From positions 1 to 33,573 of the forward strand of contig JAPYRR010000011.1 of NCBI GenBank assembly GCA_029936885.1: a stretch of 33,573 nucleotides of DNA, in the 5' to 3' direction. The notes beneath the pieces are model-generated. The model was not told where the DNA came from and did no database searches. It was given only the letters and a program-made list of their open reading frames with translations. Shown piece by piece: positions 12,426 through 21,797 of this stretch. The first letter of the stretch is position 1, and the number at the start of each line of letters is the position of its first letter. Source of the DNA: Fidelibacterota bacterium. Lineage in GTDB: Bacteria > Fidelibacterota > Marinisomatia > Marinisomatales > UBA1611. The translations under genes were made by a program, and so were the position numbers.

Positions 12426-13355
12426 ATGAATGTTTCTGTCATCATCCCGGTTTTTAATGAGAGAGGTTCCTTATCTGAATTGGTTAAGGAGCTAAATCAA
12501 TCTTTAAATTCAACTTCTGAGTGGGAAGTTATCTTTATTGATGATGGTTCATCTGATGGATCATCAGAATGGCTTGCAAACCAGTGTGAACAAAATCCCA
12601 ATTATAAATTAATCCAATTTTTTCGTAATTATGGGAAATCTGCAGCTCTTTCTGAAGGATTTAAAGCTGCCAATGGTGATTATATTATTACCATGGATGG
12701 TGATTTGCAGGATGATCCCGCTGAAATTCAAACCTTAATTTCAAAACTTGAAGAGGGTTGGGATCTTGTATCAGGGTGGAAAAAAACTCGGCATGACCCT
12801 TTAAGTAAAAGAATACCATCAAAATTATTTAATTTTGTAACTCGGTTAATGACGGGAGTGAAGATCCATGATTTTAATTGTGGATTGAAAGGATATAAAA
12901 AGGCTGTCGTTAAATCGATTGAAGTTTATGGAGGACGCCACCGTTATATACCAGCTCTCGCAGGACAGCGAAAATTTAAAGTAACAGAAATTGTCGTTAA
13001 CCATAGACCCCGACAGTTTGGTGAAACAAAATATGGTGGATCAAGAATATTTCACGGTTTCTTTGATTTGATTACCCTATTATTCTTGAACCGATATACC
13101 CAACAACCGCTTCATCTTTTTGGGTTTTTTGGGTTAGGGGCACTCAAACTTGGAATCATTGTGGAATGTATTGTTTTATATTATAAATATGGCCTCGGAG
13201 AACCTTTCGCTTTGCATATGGCTCTCCTGATGTTTGGGATTATGTTAATCGTAATCGGGATCCAATTTTTCTCTATTGGCCTTTTGGGAGAAATGATAGC
13301 ACGATCTACCCAAAGTCAGGAAGATAGGGTTCGTAAAGTCATAACGAAAGATTAA
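12426..13355 (+). CDS. Family 2 glycosyltransferase, DPM1/GtrB-like, membrane anchored
   Basis: The 309-residue protein has a GT-A domain at about 1-225. VIIPVFNERGSLSELV starts the nucleotide-binding fold, IFIDDGSSDGSSEW holds the first acidic cluster, FRNYGKSAALSEGFKAANGD follows, and ITMDGDLQDDPAEI carries the DxD-type metal site. DFNCGLKGYK and RHRYIPALAG are typical of the DPM1/GtrB group, which moves a sugar from a nucleotide onto polyprenyl phosphate. Two C-terminal membrane helices (about 233-258 and 268-300) match GtrB-like enzymes. It should act at the cytoplasmic face of the inner membrane. It is the first of three consecutive glycosyltransferase genes with 10-nt or shorter gaps. 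The sugar is unknown. Confidence 0.88.
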   Translation: MNVSVIIPVFNERGSLSELVKELNQSLNSTSEWEVIFIDDGSSDGSSEWLANQCEQNPNYKLIQFFRNYGKSAALSEGFKAANGDYIITMDGDLQDDPAEIQTLISKLEEGWDLVSGWKKTRHDPLSKRIPSKLFNFVTRLMTGVKIHDFNCGLKGYKKAVVKSIEVYGGRHRYIPALAGQRKFKVTEIVVNHRPRQFGETKYGGSRIFHGFFDLITLLFLNRYTQQPLHLFGFFGLGALKLGIIVECIVLYYKYGLGEPFALHMALLMFGIMLIVIGIQFFSIGLLGEMIARSTQSQEDRVRKVITKD

Positions 13356-13365
13356 TAGCCTCAAA

Positions 13366-14397
13366 ATGACCGGCGTATCACCGATCATCAGTATTGTTAC
13401 ACCCTCATTTAATCGGATTGATGAACTTCAATATTTGTATCAATCTCTTAAAGATCAATCCATTGATTTGACCCTCATTGAGTTCATTGTTTCAGATGAT
13501 GGTTCCACCGACTCAACTGAAACAACTGTTAAACAATGGCAAAATGATTCACCATTCACAATAAAATTTATAACTCAAGAAAATCAAGGTCCTGGTGCTG
13601 CTCGCAATCATGGATTGAAAAATTGTCATGGTGAATTAATCTTATTTATTGATTCTGACTGTGAAGCTCATCCCGATTGGATCAAAACTATTTATAATGA
13701 ATATTTAAAAGATTCTTTTGATGCGTGTGGTGGGCCAGATGGAGCAAAGGATGATTTTACTATATTACAAAAAGCAATTGATTTTGCTATGACATCTTTT
13801 TTTACAACGGGTGGCATGAGAGGCCATAGTGAAAAAATGATCGCTAAGTTTTTTCCACGCACCCATAATATGGGAATAAAAAGAACGGTATATGAAAAGG
13901 TGGGAGGATTTGGAGACTTACGTCATGGACAAGATATTGAATTCAGTAATCGAATTCGGAAATCGGGTGCACGAATCAAATTTATTCTGGATGCGATTGT
14001 TTATCATCGCCGCCGCACATCTTTAAAACAGTTTTTAAAACAAGTGTTCAATTGGGGTGTCGCACGAATCAATCTGGGGAAAATTGATTCATCTATGCTG
14101 GAACCCATTCACTTTTTACCTTCAGTCGCAACTCTAATAGGAATTTCTCTTCTCGGCTTGGTATTATTTTCAAAATTAGCATTGAATTATTTTCTCTTAT
14201 TGATTTTTATCCCATTAAGTTCACTTTCAATTTTTGGTGCAGTAAAAAAAAGCGATATACGAATACTACCACTTTTATTTATCGTTATTCCAGCTCAGAT
14301 TATTGGATATGCCACAGGATTTATTCTGAACTTTATTAATAGGTTTATATTTAAACGGGATAAATGGACCGGATTCACGAAAAAATATTATGACTAA
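13366..14397 (+). CDS. Family 2 glycosyltransferase with C-terminal membrane helices
   Basis: This 343-residue protein has a classic GT2 start: SIVTPSFNRIDELQYLYQSL, then FIVSDDGSTDSTE, then QGPGAARNHGLKNCHGELI and LFIDSDCEAHPDWI with the DSD metal-binding motif. A middle piece, HGQDIEFSNRIRKSGARIKF, corresponds to the acceptor-side ED motif region. After that come YHRRRTSLKQFLKQVFNWGV and two to three membrane helices near the C-terminus (about 245-325). Such enzymes usually add a sugar to a lipid-linked glycan at the inner membrane. It overlaps the next glycosyltransferase gene by 8 nt. No ribosome-binding site is visible. Donor and acceptor are unknown. Confidence 0.87.
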   Translation: MTGVSPIISIVTPSFNRIDELQYLYQSLKDQSIDLTLIEFIVSDDGSTDSTETTVKQWQNDSPFTIKFITQENQGPGAARNHGLKNCHGELILFIDSDCEAHPDWIKTIYNEYLKDSFDACGGPDGAKDDFTILQKAIDFAMTSFFTTGGMRGHSEKMIAKFFPRTHNMGIKRTVYEKVGGFGDLRHGQDIEFSNRIRKSGARIKFILDAIVYHRRRTSLKQFLKQVFNWGVARINLGKIDSSMLEPIHFLPSVATLIGISLLGLVLFSKLALNYFLLLIFIPLSSLSIFGAVKKSDIRILPLLFIVIPAQIIGYATGFILNFINRFIFKRDKWTGFTKKYYD

Positions 14398-15391
14398 TAA
14401 ACTGCCGTTAAATGATTCTGTATTTTTTGCTTGGACTCGAGTTTCAAGAAGGTCAGAACAATTGGCGAAATATTTTGAGTTGACTTATGTCCGATATAAT
14501 CGGTGGGGTCAATCGGACATTTCTTTAACATGTTCATTAATATTTAATTTTGTAAAAACATTATTCTGGGTGGTATTTCATCGTCCAAAATTTATTTTCA
14601 CTTTTCAAGCTCACCCATTTATATCTATTTCTGCAAAGTTGGGAACTTGGTTTACAGGAAAAGGTGTTGTAATACCGGATCTTCACACTGCAGCCTATAC
14701 AAACCATTTTACAGGTATACAGGGTGCCTTGGGAAAATGGATCATGGGAAAAAGCCCATTAATATTGGTTCATAATGATGAATCTAAAACATTTCTCGGG
14801 AATGCTATTGATGAATTAAAAGACAAACTGTTTGTACTGGAAGACGCACTTCCAGAATTCCCTTCTTTCAATTCTGAACTTGATTCAAATGAATTAAAAT
14901 GTGTTTTAATTTCCCGTTTTGCGCCAGACGAACCCATCCAAGAATTTCTGGATGCAGTTTCCAAAATCGATAATTGTCTGTTTTATATCACAGGAAATCA
15001 TCAAAAAGCCACATTTGATATTTCAAAATATCCTGAAGATAGAATCTTTTTTACAGGTTTTTTATCGGAGAATGATTATTTAAAACTTCTTCAATCTTCG
15101 GATATGATCTTGATTTTAACCACGCGGGAGATGACACTCCTTTCGGGGGGATATGAGGCACTTTCGCTCGAAAAACCTATAGTGTTATCCGACACTGAAA
15201 CCCTAAGAAATTATTTTAGAAATACAGCTATCTACACTCAAAATAATGCAAATGACATTCGTCAGGCTGTCATAAAGATGATGCCTGAAATCCATAATAG
15301 ACGTAAAACGATTTTGGATTTAAAAAAGCAAAAAATAGATGAATGGCAAGAAAAAGCAAGCAACCTGATTCAATTGATTAACCAACTATAA
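14390..15391 (+). CDS. GT-B fold glycosyltransferase (GT4-like)
   Basis: This is a 333-residue protein with two Rossmann-like halves. The C-terminal half contains LKCVLISRFAPDEPIQEFLD, RIFFTGFLSENDYLKLLQSS and GGYEALSLEKPIVLSD, the last being the nucleotide-sugar-binding E-loop typical of GT4/group 1 enzymes. The N-terminal half, SVFFAWTRVSRRSEQLAKYF, is the acceptor side, with a hydrophobic patch around FVKTLFWVVFHRPKFIF that could rest on the membrane. It overlaps the upstream GT2 gene by 8 nt and its stop lies only 6 nt from the stop of the convergent sulfotransferase. Its product is most likely a surface polysaccharide or lipid-linked glycan. Substrates are unknown. It is slightly short for the family. 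Confidence 0.8.
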   Translation: MTNKLPLNDSVFFAWTRVSRRSEQLAKYFELTYVRYNRWGQSDISLTCSLIFNFVKTLFWVVFHRPKFIFTFQAHPFISISAKLGTWFTGKGVVIPDLHTAAYTNHFTGIQGALGKWIMGKSPLILVHNDESKTFLGNAIDELKDKLFVLEDALPEFPSFNSELDSNELKCVLISRFAPDEPIQEFLDAVSKIDNCLFYITGNHQKATFDISKYPEDRIFFTGFLSENDYLKLLQSSDMILILTTREMTLLSGGYEALSLEKPIVLSDTETLRNYFRNTAIYTQNNANDIRQAVIKMMPEIHNRRKTILDLKKQKIDEWQEKASNLIQLINQL

Positions 15392-15397
15392 ATTTTA

Positions 15398-16228
15398 TTA
15401 TTTAAAACAGCTCAGATCAATTGGGTCAATTTTTGATTTGATAAGAGCTTGATCATCCAAAGAAAAAATCGATTCAAATTTATTAGATTCTTTTAATTCA
15501 TTTGAGGCATCCGGTTTCCAAACCTCTTCTGGGAATTTTAATTCTTTGGTTTTGTGGGAAAATAATTTCATCTCATTTAAATAATCCAATTCCAAGAAAT
15601 CACAAATCCGCTTCAGAGAGTCTTCTGTTTTGTAGATAAGGTCTTTATAAAAAATGAAATGGTGATTCTGTTTCCCAAGATGTTTTTTGTGGATTTGAAT
15701 ATCAAACTTCCAGCGGAGAATACACTTTTGGATTGATTGTTTTCCGTCGAATGCATTTGGATTATTTTTACTGGCATCGAATAAAGATGCCACAACATCC
15801 TTTCCATCTCGAATAATATGAATAAATTTTGTTTCCTGTCTTACATTCTCGATCAGAGATGCAAAATAAAGATGCATAGGCGTTTTTTCTACCCATATTT
15901 TCTCGATAGAATTATGAGAGAGTGAATCCAATAGATAGAGTAGACCTTTTATCCATTCTGTTGTGTTAAAAGTAGCTGACGGGATTTTGACATCTAATTC
16001 AATCTGATTAACCCGAATTAAAAATTTCCGAATAAATTCTTTTTCTTTTTCCCCATAAAATTTCAACCATCGTAAAAAAGAAAATTTTGGGATTGTTCCA
16101 CGAAAGAAATGTGTTTCTGGGAATGAATATACCTCGGGATGAGAAGCAAGCATGGATTGCAAAAGAGTAGTTCCAGATCTTGCAGACCCTACAATAAAAA
16201 CTGCTTTTTTAGATTCGGAATTCTTCAT
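15398..16228 (-). CDS. Sulfotransferase family protein
   Basis: This 276-residue protein opens with the PAPS-binding loop of sulfotransferases, VFIVGSARSGTTLLQSMLAS (about residues 10-29), followed by HPEVYSFPETHFF. The 3'-phosphate-binding motif is present as FIHIIRDGKDVVASLFDAS, with Arg, Asp and the final Ser conserved. HFIFYKDLIYKTEDSLKRIC is the usual helix before the C-terminal region, which ends soon after a DPIDLSCF segment. It would move sulfate from PAPS to a carbohydrate, lipid or peptide hydroxyl group. It is the second of two sulfotransferase genes on this strand and overlaps the first by 20 nt. It faces the glycosyltransferase genes tail to tail, with only 6 nt between stops. 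Confidence 0.86.
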   Translation of the reverse strand: MKNSESKKAVFIVGSARSGTTLLQSMLASHPEVYSFPETHFFRGTIPKFSFLRWLKFYGEKEKEFIRKFLIRVNQIELDVKIPSATFNTTEWIKGLLYLLDSLSHNSIEKIWVEKTPMHLYFASLIENVRQETKFIHIIRDGKDVVASLFDASKNNPNAFDGKQSIQKCILRWKFDIQIHKKHLGKQNHHFIFYKDLIYKTEDSLKRICDFLELDYLNEMKLFSHKTKELKFPEEVWKPDASNELKESNKFESIFSLDDQALIKSKIDPIDLSCFK

Positions 16229-17195
16229 AATGTTTTATGGGCAGGATGGAATATCCTTTTTGAATCTTAATTATTTGATCGGAGGTAAGGGCCGTTTTCC
16301 ATTTATCAATAAGATTTGATGTAATACGATTTGGTTTAAAACCAGTTCCAGGCTTATTCATATTTTTTATTTTAGTCTCAACAGATTGGGTCCACGGAAG
16401 CCCAATTGCTTCAAAAAGGGATTTATATTTCTTCTCCGGATTTATACATAATTCTTCATGTGTTATTTCATACCAATCGGAATTGGATTCTATTTGTTTC
16501 TCCCATAAATAGTAAAATATTCCAATCTGTAACCCCATGAAAGATAAAGGATCATTCAATGAATCTATTTGGGATTGGTATGGTTCTAATGTTTTCGATA
16601 ATTCTTTACGTTTATAAATATTTCGATTTCTATCAAAAATTCTTAATTCTAAACAACTGGATATAATATTTGCCGGATGACGATAAATTAAAACCGTTTT
16701 AGGTTGAAAATGATGGGTTATAAACGGAAGGCATAATCCGGAATGAACAGATTTGATAACCAATTGATTTTTTCTTAACCAGAAATCCTTCGTCAGTGTG
16801 TAAAGAATTGAAGTTAGAAGATTTGGTCTACCTGGAAGGATTTTTTCCTTTTCTAAAGTTAAATCCTTCATTCGAACAAATAATTCATTCCCCTTTTTAT
16901 CTCCCGTTGATATTTGATTCAATATATGATTGATATAGGATTGATTATTTGGGTAAGCCCCTTTTAATATTTGCTCGAAAAAATTGAAAAGTTGATCAGA
17001 TTCAGTCGCTGAATCTCCAAAGGGGAAACGATATAGTGACTTTTTCCATTGTTTGGCTAAATAGCTATATTTTTCATTATCCGGCTCAGTCAAAAGTCTT
17101 ATATCTTTCCCAGAACCTAAAACAGTAGCGACCCAGGTTGTACCACTTCGTGGAACACCTGAAATGAAAATTGGTTTATATGTGGACTCATTCAC
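16209..17195 (-). CDS. Sulfotransferase family protein
   Basis: The 328-residue protein has a PAPS-binding P-loop near the N-terminus, IFISGVPRSGTTWVATVLGS (about residues 9-28), and a 3'-phosphate-binding motif TVLIYRHPANIISSCLELRI with conserved Arg and Ser. ITHEELCINPEKKYKSLFEA and the short NKPGTGFKPNRI segment fit the C-terminal part of Sulfotransfer_3-type enzymes. It is the first gene of a two-gene minus-strand operon and overlaps the second by 20 nt. The 135-nt gap upstream is shared with the divergent YfhO gene. The two sulfotransferases are clearly different in sequence and so are not a recent duplication; they may sulfate different positions or substrates. The acceptor is unknown. 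Confidence 0.86.
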   Translation of the reverse strand: MNESTYKPIFISGVPRSGTTWVATVLGSGKDIRLLTEPDNEKYSYLAKQWKKSLYRFPFGDSATESDQLFNFFEQILKGAYPNNQSYINHILNQISTGDKKGNELFVRMKDLTLEKEKILPGRPNLLTSILYTLTKDFWLRKNQLVIKSVHSGLCLPFITHHFQPKTVLIYRHPANIISSCLELRIFDRNRNIYKRKELSKTLEPYQSQIDSLNDPLSFMGLQIGIFYYLWEKQIESNSDWYEITHEELCINPEKKYKSLFEAIGLPWTQSVETKIKNMNKPGTGFKPNRITSNLIDKWKTALTSDQIIKIQKGYSILPIKHYEEFRI

Positions 17196-17330
17196 TTAAA
17201 ATAGTCAAAATAAATTCTTGGGAAATTAAGTGTTTGAGAGAAATGAGTAATGCGTTTTATTTCTAAAAGCATCGAAAATATTTTGGTAAAATCCATCCCT
17301 TAATCAGGAAGAAATATTTTTAAGGTTGTT

Positions 17331-19682
17331 ATGAATCAAATATTGAATAAAAAGAATCAGATCGCCTTGGGTATAATGATGGTTGTACCCATGATTATGT
17401 TGTATAAAATGATATTCTTAGGAGAAATTGTTGGTGCTAACGATCAATTGGAGCGTCACCCTATCAACCAATGGCGTGATACCTACCTGAATAGTAACGA
17501 AGATTTTCCACAATGGTATCCAAATCTTTTTTCCGGTATGCCGTCTTATGGCGGCTATATTTATACGCCAGGAGACCCTACACGACCGATTCAGGATTTA
17601 GTATTTTTCAATAAGGGTATCAAAATTTGGTTTTATTTGGTCTTCTCTTGTCTTGGAATGTTTATTTTTCTTCGGAAGATTGGCGTCAGTTTGTATAGCT
17701 CTATTTTAGGAGGCCTTTTAACCGGTTTAACGCCTTATTCATTTGGACTCATTAATGCTGGCCATTTAAATAAAATATTTGCCATGTCCTTTACTCCGTG
17801 GATGTTAGCTTCGGTTTTTTGCTTAATTAAAAAACCCACACTTAAATCTATTTTAATATTATCTATTTTAACTGCTTTCCAACTTTGGGCAAATCATCCC
17901 CAGATTGTCTATTATACTTGGATGGTCATTGGATTTTATTGGGTTTGGGAATTGGGATTTTCTGTGAAAGAAAGATCATTTTCACCCCAAGTCAGCGGAA
18001 AACAGATCGGTTGTATTTTAGGTGGACTCTTCCTTGCATTGTTGATGGTGTCTGACCCTTATATCGATATTTATAAATTCCAAGATCATTCAAATCGTGG
18101 GGCAAAATCTGTTTTGGATCAATCAGGCCAAACAGAATCCGGGACAGATTGGAATTATGCAACACAATGGTCATTCCATCCGAAAGAATCAATCTCATTT
18201 TTATATCCCTATCATTATGGATTACAGAATTATTCTACTCGTGATTTGAAATCAGCTGCTTATTGGGGATATATGCCCTTTACACAATCAACCCATTATC
18301 TAGGATTAATTGCTATTATTTTTGCAATATTAGGTGCTCTTTTAAGAAAACCTGACAAATTGGAAATGTTTTTTTGGGTAACAACGTTCTTAGCATTAAT
18401 TACAGGATTTGGATCATTTTTCCCAATATTGTTTAAACCATTTTATTCTATTCTGCCTCTTTTCTCTAAATTCCGAATTCCGTCCATGATTTATGTTCTT
18501 TTAGCTATAACGCTTCCATTTCTAGCGGCGAAAGGTATTGATTCATATTTGGAGAAATCAGAAAAACATGAATCCTATAAAAAGGCACTTTATGTTGTTG
18601 GGGGTTTTGCAGGATTATCAATAATTCTCCTTCTTGTTGGCGAGACTATATTTGATTTTTCAAGTGTTAAAGATGGGAGGTTTAATCCTGCTGTCATATC
18701 CCAGCTTAAAACAGTTAGAATTGACCTTTTTCAAAAAGGTGTGCTTTTAGCTCTTGGAATAAGCCTAGGATCCTTAGGGTTACTGTGGGGATTAAATCAG
18801 AAAAAAATGAATCATAAAGTTTTCAGTTTGGCAATGATTGGCTTGATCGTTGTCGATTTGTGGATTGTGAATATGGAATTCCTAAACCTGCAGCCTTCTC
18901 GCAATATGGATCTTATGTTCCAAGCTAATCCTGTAATCAATTTTTTGAAAAATGATAAAGATCAATTCAGAATATTTCCGGCAGATGAATTATCATCTAA
19001 TAAATTCAGTTATTGGAATCTTGAAAGTATTGGCGGATATCGTCCCATCAAACTTCGGAATTACCAGGATCTCATGGATGCAAAAGGATTCAGTAAACCC
19101 CACATTTTGAATATGTTGAATGTGAAGTATATCCTGACTGGTAAAAAGATCAAAAATTCTAATTTTTTGCCTGTTGAGACTGTAAAAGGTGTATTCCAAA
19201 ATTTAAAGGTACTCCCAAAAGCATGGATCGTTGGAAATGTAAAATCAGTGGAAACGCAACGGGAATCATTAATGGAAACATTATTAAATGGATTTGATCC
19301 ATCAAATTCAGCTATCATTTATAAATATGGAGGTGAACCAATCATTGGAGTCTCATCGGGCCAAGCTGATGTTAAATCAAGAGTAGAAAATCGAATAGAA
19401 ATTAATTCTCAATCTGAAACTGGTGGCCTTCTGGTCCTTTCCGAAATATATTATAAACCCGGTTGGAAAGCATTCGTAAATGGAGAAGAAACACCTATCT
19501 ATCAAACGAATCATGTTTTGAGATCGGTAAGGGTACCCAAAGGAGACTCTAAAATAATTTTTGAGTATGACGACGGTCCTTGGCATAAAACTCGAATTGT
19601 ATCTAGGGTCTCTTTCCTAATTGTTCTTTTTGGATTAGGATTACTTTTTTGGCGAGATAAAGAGAAATCAAATAAAGTGTAA
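17331..19682 (+). CDS. YfhO-family polytopic membrane protein (GT-C-like)
   Basis: This 783-residue protein matches the YfhO family. It has a first membrane helix, an outward loop with DQLERHPINQWRDTYLNSNE and WYPNLFSGMPSYGGYIYTPG, about a dozen hydrophobic helices to residue 520 or so, and a soluble C-terminal part with GGYRPIKLRNYQDLM, NMLNVKYILTG and YYKPGWKAFVNGEETPIYQT, then a last membrane helix. YfhO proteins have a GT-C-like fold and in Gram-positive bacteria help glycosylate lipoteichoic acid from a polyprenyl-phosphate sugar. A related glycan-decoration role here is inference. AAGG at 17322-17325 lies 5 nt before the ATG. It is divergent from the sulfotransferase operon, and the histidine kinase starts one base after its stop. 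Confidence 0.85.
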   Translation: MNQILNKKNQIALGIMMVVPMIMLYKMIFLGEIVGANDQLERHPINQWRDTYLNSNEDFPQWYPNLFSGMPSYGGYIYTPGDPTRPIQDLVFFNKGIKIWFYLVFSCLGMFIFLRKIGVSLYSSILGGLLTGLTPYSFGLINAGHLNKIFAMSFTPWMLASVFCLIKKPTLKSILILSILTAFQLWANHPQIVYYTWMVIGFYWVWELGFSVKERSFSPQVSGKQIGCILGGLFLALLMVSDPYIDIYKFQDHSNRGAKSVLDQSGQTESGTDWNYATQWSFHPKESISFLYPYHYGLQNYSTRDLKSAAYWGYMPFTQSTHYLGLIAIIFAILGALLRKPDKLEMFFWVTTFLALITGFGSFFPILFKPFYSILPLFSKFRIPSMIYVLLAITLPFLAAKGIDSYLEKSEKHESYKKALYVVGGFAGLSIILLLVGETIFDFSSVKDGRFNPAVISQLKTVRIDLFQKGVLLALGISLGSLGLLWGLNQKKMNHKVFSLAMIGLIVVDLWIVNMEFLNLQPSRNMDLMFQANPVINFLKNDKDQFRIFPADELSSNKFSYWNLESIGGYRPIKLRNYQDLMDAKGFSKPHILNMLNVKYILTGKKIKNSNFLPVETVKGVFQNLKVLPKAWIVGNVKSVETQRESLMETLLNGFDPSNSAIIYKYGGEPIIGVSSGQADVKSRVENRIEINSQSETGGLLVLSEIYYKPGWKAFVNGEETPIYQTNHVLRSVRVPKGDSKIIFEYDDGPWHKTRIVSRVSFLIVLFGLGLLFWRDKEKSNKV

Positions 19683-19683
19683 T

Positions 19684-20847
19684 ATGAATCTTTATAAACA
19701 TACGGGAAATATTAAAGCAGGATTATTTATACTTGGTATCAGTTTAGTAATTGGGCTTTTGGCTTATACTCAATCATTGGTTAAAGAACTTCGAAATGAT
19801 AACCGAGAGATTGTTCGAATGTATGCTGAAATTATTGCAGGAACAGTTCAGGATGATAATGACACAAACCTTAATTTCGTTTTTGATAATATTATACGGA
19901 AAGTCAAATTCCCTTTAATTCAAACGGATCCAGATCACAAGCCCCAGATGTGGAAAAATTTACCAGAATCTGTCGATACGGAAAAAAAACGGATACGTTT
20001 CATGCGAGCAATGGATCAATTAAATGAATCGATTCCTTTAGTTTATAAAGATAGTTCTGTGGGGGAGATAACCTTTGGGTATTTGCATTATGGTGATTCA
20101 TCCATTGTTGAAAAATTGCAATGGTGGACTTATATCGAGATTGTTGCAATTGCATTATTCATTTTCTTGGGATTTACAGGTTTTTCTTTTATACGAAACA
20201 ATGAAAAAAGACATATTTGGGTTGGGATGGCTCGAGAGACGGCCCATCAACTTGGAACTCCCGTATCCGCTTTAATGGGATGGGTGGAGTGGCTCAAGGA
20301 ACATCCTGAAAAAACTGGTGAAATTATTCCTGAAATGGAAGCAGATCTTCAAAGATTAGAGCAAATCGGTCGACGGTTCAGTAAAATGGGCTCAAAAACA
20401 GATTTTGAAGCATTAGATTTGTCGGAACGGGTTCAGCGAGTCGTAGATTACCTTGCAAAAAGAATGCCATCTCTTGGAAAAAAAGTTGACTTGGTCAACG
20501 ATATTCAACCTGGGATCACGATTACAGCCAATGGCTCCCTTTTAGCGTGGTCGATTGAAAACCTGATTAGAAATGGAATAGATGCAATTGATCGTGATGA
20601 TGGAAAAGTTTCTGTCTCTCTTCGAAAAGAAAAAGATGAAATTCGTATTCGTATTCAGGATAATGGAAAAGGAATCCCTAAAAAAGATTGGCGGAACATT
20701 TTCCGGCCCGGGTTCAGCACGAAAAGAGCAGGATGGGGATTAGGTTTATCTCTATCAAGCAGGATTGTTGAAGATATCCATAATGGCCAATTGCAAGTTA
20801 TCGAATCATCCCCTGAAACAGGGACGATTATTGAGATCAAGCTTTAA
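19684..20847 (+). CDS. Membrane sensor histidine kinase, orphan
   Basis: The 387-residue protein has an N-terminal membrane helix (about 12-30), a periplasmic sensor segment (31-148) and a second helix (about 149-170). The dimerisation and phosphoacceptor region has His188 in ARETAHQLGTPVSALMGW. The ATP-binding domain has an N box (IENLIRNGIDAID, 291-303), a G1 box (IQDNGKGIP, Asp326) and a G2-like GWGLGLSLSSRIVEDI, so all core motifs are intact. The sensor part matches no domain I recognise. It starts one base after the YfhO stop, so it is cotranscribed with it. No response regulator lies in the window, so its partner must be elsewhere. The next gene is convergent, 32 nt away, with no terminator visible. 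Confidence 0.9.
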   Translation: MNLYKHTGNIKAGLFILGISLVIGLLAYTQSLVKELRNDNREIVRMYAEIIAGTVQDDNDTNLNFVFDNIIRKVKFPLIQTDPDHKPQMWKNLPESVDTEKKRIRFMRAMDQLNESIPLVYKDSSVGEITFGYLHYGDSSIVEKLQWWTYIEIVAIALFIFLGFTGFSFIRNNEKRHIWVGMARETAHQLGTPVSALMGWVEWLKEHPEKTGEIIPEMEADLQRLEQIGRRFSKMGSKTDFEALDLSERVQRVVDYLAKRMPSLGKKVDLVNDIQPGITITANGSLLAWSIENLIRNGIDAIDRDDGKVSVSLRKEKDEIRIRIQDNGKGIPKKDWRNIFRPGFSTKRAGWGLGLSLSSRIVEDIHNGQLQVIESSPETGTIIEIKL

Positions 20848-20879: not shown

Positions 20880-21797
20880 TTATTCAACATCCAAAATGAA
20901 ATGGAGTATTGCGATGATATCCAATACATTGATCTCACCATCTAAAGTAACATCACCGCACCCAAAGAAAAATGGCTGTGGATCTCTCTCAAGAATAAAG
21001 TCCACTATTAATGGGAGATCAATCACATTCACTAATTCATCTCCATTCGCATCTCCCGGCAAATCACAGGATCCGAGGAAATTATCCTCGACGGTTGATG
21101 CGCCGCTTTGAAAAGTACCATTGTTTCCGTTTCCTGTTTGGTCTGTGGCTGTACCATCATCAACATTCCATAAAGCAACCAGTCCATTTTCATTTCCGGT
21201 CAGTGGGATATCCATAGTATATTGGATATCTTCCTGGGATCTTGGGAAGCCCCAAACCCTCACTTCATCGACCCAGCCATTAAACATTCCGCGTGTATAG
21301 CCATTGTATTTTAATCGACCGATTTCCGTGTACTCGATATTAGTATTATAATTTCCATCTTGGAGGTTTTCTAGCGTCCCAACCAGATTACCATCAATAT
21401 AGAAATAAAGGGATTCCGGTTTTACCACGCCTGCATAATGATGCTATTCGTTATAATTTCTGCTAGGTGAATAAATTATTTGAGTGGAATTATCCGACCC
21501 ACGAATTGTAAACCCGGTAGTTTGATTTGTATAAGCGTCCGTTTCGGACTTTAAACCTGTCATGGTATGGCCATCACCAGTGGTTTCCGTCCTTTGGATA
21601 AAAATGGGATTATTGTTTTGAGAACCGCCCCCAGCTGAATTCATATTTGCCCAAGCTTCGATCGTAAAAGTTGCGGTATTCACAACAGGCACCGCAATGC
21701 TTACAAAATCATTTTCTCCATCCAAAACCAATACTTGGTTTTGAGCAAATACTAATGATAAAATATATAAAAAAGATGAATTAACTATTTTTCTCAT
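20880..21797 (-). pseudogene. Secreted LamG-domain protein with C-terminal dockerin-like repeat, interrupted by in-frame TAG
   Basis: One 305-codon frame starts at ATG 21797, with GGAG at a spacing of 6 nt, and ends with TAA at 20882-20880. The signal peptide is MRKIVNSSFLYILSLVFA. A LamG/concanavalin-like lectin domain follows (VLVLDGENDFVSIAVPVVNT to GWVDEVRVWGFPRSQEDIQY), then NGLVALWNVDDGTATDQTGN. At codon 118 (21446-21444) there is TAG where this domain normally has Trp, in the context RNYNE-stop-HHYAGVV; the frame continues unchanged on both sides. The C-terminus has two dockerin-like calcium-binding halves, GDANGDELVNVIDLPLIV (248-265) and GDVTLDGEINVLDIIAI (281-297). Such tails are common on secreted proteins of Marinimicrobia-like genomes. 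A nonsense mutation is the simplest reading. A sequencing error or readthrough is possible. It is somewhat richer in GC than its neighbours. Confidence 0.82.

Follow-up and report, generated by a model that had tools for sequence, protein, structure and literature searches.

A fixed-position glycan locus with exchangeable contents and putative sulfotransferases in Marinimicrobia

Analyzing a 33,573-nucleotide stretch of DNA from a Fidelibacterota bacterium (contig JAPYRR010000011.1 of assembly GCA_029936885.1; hereafter the window), we found that three glycosyltransferase genes (GT2a, GT2b and GT1c), two sulfotransferase genes (ST1 and ST2), a YfhO-type gene and a sensor kinase gene belong to a fixed-position glycan locus, whose frame is conserved while the genes between change across lineages. 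We consider it fairly probable that this locus builds an envelope glycan and adds sulfate to it; a sulfated surface glycan is our preferred reading and is partly supported, with relatives supplying genes that the window lacks. The source genome (G000) belongs to Ca. Neomarinimicrobiota (Marinimicrobia) and its assembly, 87% complete, totals 1.71 Mb over 125 contigs; named records of YfhO relatives with at least 40% identity were mostly Ca. Neomarinimicrobiota, a few carrying other or generic names. The comparison set consisted of 61 genomes, 11 of which had no YfhO match. The other 50, including the window's, gave 51 YfhO neighborhoods (G050 being in two pieces), and their open reading frames (ORFs) were clustered. 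Counts of complete loci refer to the 26 of 51 pieces in which GT2a and the kinase bound the locus on one contig. The labels ST1, ST2, STc17, STc20 and STc24 are best-profile labels of our own clustering, in which some members are weak.

The recurrent gene order, with local exceptions, was extracytoplasmic function (ECF) sigma factor - anti-sigma factor - GGDEF - TPR - LolB-like - GT2a ... YfhO - kinase - YajC - def - fmt - rsmB. The interior between GT2a and the kinase varied, drawing on five sulfotransferase clusters, several glycosyltransferase clusters and methyltransferases; Wzx-type flippases were found in 24 of the 51 pieces, and the interior of a sibling cassette carried a polysaccharide pyruvyl transferase. 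Contents differed even inside one genus. In a tree of six frame proteins from 49 genomes (support values are not shown), G003 was sister to the window's genome, yet its interior differed, carrying STc24, two other genes and Wzx; the interior of G004, of the window's genus, was like that of the window. Forty-seven of the 139 Sulfotransfer_3 matches in the 61 genomes, some of them two pieces of a single gene, lay no more than 10 kb from YfhO, where random placement would put about 1.4, so the clustering is well beyond chance. A sulfotransferase lay at this distance in 32 of the 50 YfhO-bearing genomes and was present in 21 of the 26 complete loci. Outside the named phylum, a similar order of TPR - GT2a - GT1 - Wzx - YfhO - kinase, with Wzx on the opposite strand, was seen in two records not labelled Marinimicrobia, bacterium USDV_maxbin.027 (L152) and candidate division KSB1 (L157), which may place the origin of the frame before that of the phylum.

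An earlier reading made from the sequence only had named independent movement of the sulfotransferases and glycosyltransferases across relatives as a ground for refutation, and here the outcome was mixed. GT1c was found only together with ST1 and ST2 (3/3 loci: G000, G004 and G050), but sulfotransferases as a class appear and vanish among loci while GT2a, YfhO and the kinase persist. In G050, which belongs to another family of the same order, one contig carries GT2a-GT2b-GT1c-ST1-ST2-Wzx-YfhO and a second YfhO-Sat-CysC-kinase. Identities between the window and G050 were 45% for GT1c, 48% for ST1 and 38% for ST2, against 50% and 44% for the two YfhO pieces. The GT1c-ST1-ST2 set is therefore either old and repeatedly lost or exchanged long ago.

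Our ORFs and Pfam scans agreed with the sequence-only reading on the identity and position of all seven genes. The sulfotransferase pair is convergent with GT1c and divergent from YfhO, as that reading had described; its two ORFs overlap by 20 bases, and the gaps to GT1c and YfhO are 6 and 135 bases. The intact donor motifs it reported for 3'-phosphoadenosine 5'-phosphosulfate (PAPS) were recovered as well: ST1 carries SARSGTT and IIRDGKDVVAS and ST2 carries VPRSGTTW and YRHPANIISS, which we take to contain the 5'-phosphosulfate-binding loop (ARSGTT/PRSGTTW) and the 3'-phosphate-binding Arg/Ser motif (RDGKDVVAS/RHPANIISS). Given that both proteins also exceeded the Sulfotransfer_3 cut-off, ST1 and ST2 are putative PAPS-dependent sulfotransferases by family and motifs. 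The best solved match of ST1 was protein-tyrosine sulfotransferase 2 (E 1.2e-10), with CurM also among its nearest solved relatives. The ratio of nonsynonymous to synonymous substitution rates (dN/dS) of ST1 against G004 was 0.10, at a dS near saturation.

For GT2a and YfhO we propose a more specific role than the earlier reading had given them. The best match of GT2a in the PDB was ArnC (E 1.3e-55 over residues 2-299), with GtrB at about 1e-30. The Pfam match of YfhO (PF09586) spans its C-terminal 61 residues only, and a profile search of PDB sequences gave no usable match, so that a fold comparison was needed. An AlphaFold2 model built from 52 window and relative sequences had a predicted local distance difference test score (pLDDT) of 92.1 and aligned with the GT-C enzymes AftD, STT3, PglB, Pmt4, ArnT, AftA and Emb at Z of about 12-20 (VIA-align), a comparison that barely covered the C-terminal beta-rich part. 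Asp38, invariant in the 52 sequences, sits past the first predicted helix, the position at which GT-C enzymes carry their catalytic acid. YfhO is thus predicted to adopt a GT-C fold. Because GT2a resembles ArnC and YfhO has this predicted fold, the two probably act as an undecaprenyl-phosphate-sugar/GT-C pair. This pairing and the fixed site with exchangeable contents are what we add to the sequence-only reading.

We then turned to sulfate activation. Within 10 kb of YfhO lay 11 of 34 ATP sulfurylase (Sat) matches (0.34 expected), distributed over 11 of the 50 genomes. In nine of these 11 the locus ATP sulfurylase was accompanied by adenosine 5'-phosphosulfate (APS) kinase: eight genomes had separate Sat and CysC genes between YfhO and the kinase, and one had a bifunctional gene just past the kinase. 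The two genomes without APS kinase there had a fusion of pyruvate kinase and ATP sulfurylase upstream of YfhO. Overall, ATP sulfurylase was found in 30 of the 61 genomes, all 30 of which also had a strong APS kinase match. Among the 24 genomes with a completeness of 90% or more and no more than 5% contamination, Sat was present in 15 of 19 with a sulfotransferase and in one of five without (Fisher p 0.028). In the window's genus one of five genomes, G004, has a Sat-CysC gene, cut at the contig end. PAPS-dependent sulfation is thus well supported for this type of locus and less so for the window's own genome. The fusion proteins (L046:10773-12953(-) and L049:9626-11797(-)) are 723-726 aa long and join a pyruvate-kinase barrel to a PUA/ATP-sulfurylase domain; no description of such a fusion was present among the literature matches listed. 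Each adjoins a protein of 424-426 aa, the 426-aa one (scanned in L046) being without a Pfam match.

Several observations weigh against a sulfated surface glycan. Neither APS kinase (PF01583) nor ATP sulfurylase (PF01747) nor CysD was found in the window's 87%-complete genome, and over all 61 genomes Sat did not correlate with sulfotransferases (27 of 53 with versus three of eight without, p 0.71). Nine species of the window's family carry the cassette GT2a-STc20-GT2b-STc17-GT-YfhO (the G016 piece begins within STc20, and G008 and G012 have a truncated kinase gene); ATP sulfurylase is missing from all nine. Multiplying (1 - completeness) across the nine species gives 2e-6, indicating that incompleteness alone fails to explain the absence. 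Wzx, Wzy and GtrA families were not found above cut-off in the 30 window ORFs scanned with Pfam, the TPR protein giving a sub-cut-off Wzy_C_2 match (20.1 bits); the lack of Wzx and Wzy noted earlier therefore stands, and Wzx was present in relatives' loci only, so by gene content the window does not qualify as a Wzx/Wzy-dependent locus. Furthermore, GT2a scored 196.8 bits against the ArnC equivalog NF007986 of NCBIfam, far below the cut-off of 529, and ST2 matched solved sulfotransferases only weakly (TPST1, E 3.6e-4).

The absence of PAPS genes, named by the sequence-only reading as grounds for refutation, was not accepted as proof: the assembly is 87% complete, and in G004, which carries the same cassette, Sat-CysC sits at a contig end. 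The proposal that a surface glycan is sulfated accordingly gains from the Sat, CysC and Wzx genes within relatives' loci and loses from the missing PAPS genes of its own genome. Candidate substitutes for the missing enzymes were set aside. PF01583 matches in the nine Sat-less species were either absent or weak; the weak ones extended over no more than about a third of the profile and were taken as unrelated P-loops. A CysD/CysN route was discarded given that a search aimed at CysD alone found nothing in family f1 (sub-cut-off matches only in G042, G053 and G060) and that CysN without APS kinase would yield no PAPS. A hidden APS kinase was also sought beside a second type of sulfotransferase in the window's genome (contig C103; L090:8879-9961(-); about 360 aa), and the candidate, a 198-aa Pfam-less neighbor with a secreted-like start, was dropped. 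This second sulfotransferase lies near a FabH-like gene and two Pfam-less proteins, in a gene order shared with G001; many relatives have sulfotransferase matches of similar length, among them the small genome G046, which has no ATP sulfurylase.

Taken as an envelope-glycan pathway, the locus could work as follows. GT2a would charge undecaprenyl phosphate with a sugar; GT2b and GT1c would extend a lipid-linked saccharide in the cytoplasm, onto which ST1 and ST2 would move sulfate from PAPS. Flipping would fall to a Wzx-type protein, which many relatives encode within the locus and this genome encodes elsewhere (contig C115). YfhO would then take the sugar from undecaprenyl phosphate and place it on the exported glycan or on another envelope acceptor. 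Exchange of the interior would make glycan structure and sulfation differ between species, as with O-antigen loci, and such variation might offer escape from phage or grazers. The C115 region (L091:7145-10071(+)) holds a FemAB/GNAT-like gene, the Wzx-type flippase gene and a sulfotransferase gene cut by the contig end; the arrangement recurs in G003 (L092) and is possibly another glycan locus.

We weighed three other explanations of these genes. The sulfotransferases may target lipids or glycolipids, or else lipoproteins or other proteins, instead of a polysaccharide, the locus yielding a short sulfated glycolipid. This would agree with a window that holds neither a Wzy polymerase nor an ABC exporter, with the protein-tyrosine sulfotransferases and CurM as the nearest solved relatives of ST1, and with a LolB-fold lipoprotein as conserved neighbor. 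Most cassettes, however, have several glycosyltransferases, nearly half of the locus pieces include a Wzx-type flippase, and both the pyruvyl transferase of the sibling cassette and the swapping of genes at a constant position look polysaccharide-like; we regard the glycolipid product as unlikely, though not negligibly so. It is highly improbable, in our judgement, that the sulfotransferases are recent, non-functional passengers beside a housekeeping operon of glycosyltransferase and YfhO genes. They do lie on the strand opposite to the frame, PAPS genes were not found in their own genome, and the sister species G003 has different contents, but their motifs are intact, ST1 has a low dN/dS (read with its near-saturated dS), and ST1-ST2-GT1c is kept both in G004 and in another family, where identities are 48% for ST1 and 38% for ST2 against 44-50% for YfhO.

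The remaining explanation concerns the lineages that lack Sat and CysC, in which no cellular sulfate activation would feed the locus: the sulfotransferases would use another 3'-phosphoadenosine donor, or PAPS would be remade from 3'-phosphoadenosine 5'-phosphate (PAP) and environmental sulfate esters. It draws on the nine species with the STc20/STc17 cassette, in which ATP sulfurylase, CysD and a full-length APS kinase match were all missing. The donor-site motifs were identical in genomes with and without Sat wherever the scan detected them, and sulfotransferase dN/dS in Sat-less pairs was mostly 0.12-0.20. The scan used simple patterns, and rows without a pattern match were not hand-aligned: the 3' motif was missed in several STc17 rows and the 5' motif in every STc24 row, and one STc20 row gave none. 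On the other side, the drafts may all miss an accessory gene, since marker-gene completeness ignores accessory genes; in one close pair STc17 had a dN/dS of 0.37, at a very low dS that makes it uninformative. We know of no use of such another donor by this sulfotransferase family, and find the explanation very unlikely. A related reading also seems quite unlikely: that species throughout the phylum swap sulfotransferase and glycosyltransferase genes at a fixed envelope-glycan site, where a surface-ocean group of Marinimicrobia keeps selected, motif-intact sulfotransferases, having lost both PAPS-synthesis enzymes and drawing on an undescribed donor supply (e.g. sulfate moved to PAP from environmental sulfate esters by reverse sulfotransfer).

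Glycan sulfation has precedents in which similar genes are clustered. The nearest one found is in Pontiella sulfatireligans F21, a marine anaerobe whose sulfated glycosaminoglycan-like exopolymer is assigned to a putative cluster comprising GT4 and GT2 glycosyltransferases, a TuaB-type protein, a methyltransferase, a sulfotransferase (stf), yfhO and an undecaprenyl-phosphate mannosyltransferase (upmt) (PMC7356697). It differs in belonging to another phylum and in being one cluster of one strain, for which the accessible part of the report describes no fixed-site exchange and no embedded Sat-CysC (PMC7356697). Capsule structures have been solved and found sulfated for Vibrio sp. KMM 8419 (PMC11641403) and Cobetia marina KMM 1449 (PMC11766843), and the clusters of both, from the portions of the two papers at hand, combine glycosyltransferases, sulfotransferases and PAPS genes but export through an ABC transporter (Kps), activate sulfate with CysN/CysD/CysC and contain no YfhO. 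PAPS synthesis genes together with sulfotransferases in a polysaccharide cluster are given as the hallmark of sulfated polysaccharide clusters (PMC11641403). The window has sulfotransferases among glycosyltransferases and no PAPS synthesis genes, and we therefore class it as working like such clusters without being a full member.

For the GT2a/YfhO pair the closest analogy is Gram-positive CsbB and YfhO, which transfer N-acetylglucosamine from undecaprenyl phosphate onto teichoic acid (PMC8035078). CsbB-GtcA-YfhO systems share with the window a GT-A polyprenyl-phosphate sugar synthase (here GT2a) and a YfhO-domain GT-C enzyme; they differ in their teichoic acid acceptors and, in the text consulted, in lacking sulfotransferases (PMC8035078). 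The Pfam scans of the window, for their part, turned up no flippase of the GtcA/GtrA family. GT2a and YfhO may thus perform chemistry like that of CsbB-YfhO, the sugar and acceptor being left unspecified.

ArnC-ArnT is a lipid A modification system. It resembles the window's pair in that GT2a is closest to ArnC among solved proteins and the YfhO model has a GT-C fold like ArnT, but the window's YfhO is larger, with its C-terminal beta-rich part, and scanning the window with Pfam gave no match to an Ara4N-pathway family. Searches of the literature on Marinimicrobia with sulfotransferase or sulfated polysaccharide returned no description of such a locus, and sulfate and polysaccharide terms in Marinimicrobia genome papers gave nothing relevant. 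What is new here is thus a probable sulfated-glycan locus, exchangeable within a fixed frame and carrying an ArnC-like/YfhO pair.

Marinimicrobia are abundant in the ocean, and very few of them have been cultured. A glycan locus that is fixed in place, exchangeable in content and variable in sulfation would offer phage and grazer selection a natural target and would also supply sulfated carbohydrate to sea water. The most valuable point is the supply of sulfate donor in Sat-less species: sulfotransferase-bearing species without detectable PAPS synthesis pose a testable question for streamlined marine bacteria.

Table 1. Features of the locus and its flanks in the window.
Feature	Coordinates	Strand	Evidence
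TPR-repeat protein, 529 aa	10221..11810	+	Pfam TPR families; cluster of 30 across compared loci; 5' side of conserved frame
LolB-like lipoprotein, 201 aa	11811..12416	+	AlphaFold2 model and Foldseek; conserved neighbor of GT2a
GT2a, ArnC/GtrB/CsbB-like polyprenyl-phosphate sugar transferase, 309 aa	12426..13355	+	PF00535 (Glycos_transf_2) 111 bits
GT2b, family 2 glycosyltransferase, 343 aa	13366..14397	+	PF00535 111 bits
GT1c, GT-B type glycosyltransferase, 333 aa	14390..15391	+	PF00534 (Glycos_transf_1) 35.6 bits, cut-off 26.4
ST1, putative sulfotransferase, 276 aa	15398..16228	-	PF13469 (Sulfotransfer_3) 97.6 bits, cut-off 27
ST2, putative sulfotransferase, 328 aa	16209..17195	-	PF13469 52.6 bits, cut-off 27
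Divergent intergenic region ST2/YfhO, 135 bases	17196..17330	.	Coordinates; promoters likely
YfhO-type membrane glycosyltransferase, predicted GT-C, 783 aa	17331..19682	+	PF09586 30.4 bits, cut-off 28.5
Sensor histidine kinase, 387 aa	19684..20847	+	HisKA and HATPase_c; cluster of 43 across compared loci; 3' edge of frame

The region between ST2 and YfhO likely holds promoters. The lipoprotein, within 10 bases of GT2a, matched no Pfam family; its Cys15 is invariant in 21 sequences, and its AlphaFold2 model (pLDDT 84.7) had LolB as best Foldseek matches (E 7e-7), so a LolB fold is predicted. Past the kinase, a pair of neighboring ORFs at 20880-21797(-) corresponds to the two halves of Laminin_G_3 (profile positions 1-62 and 92-151), with a dockerin domain after the second. 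The two ORFs, absent from most relatives' loci, are probably a single secreted LamG-dockerin gene split by a frameshift or stop.

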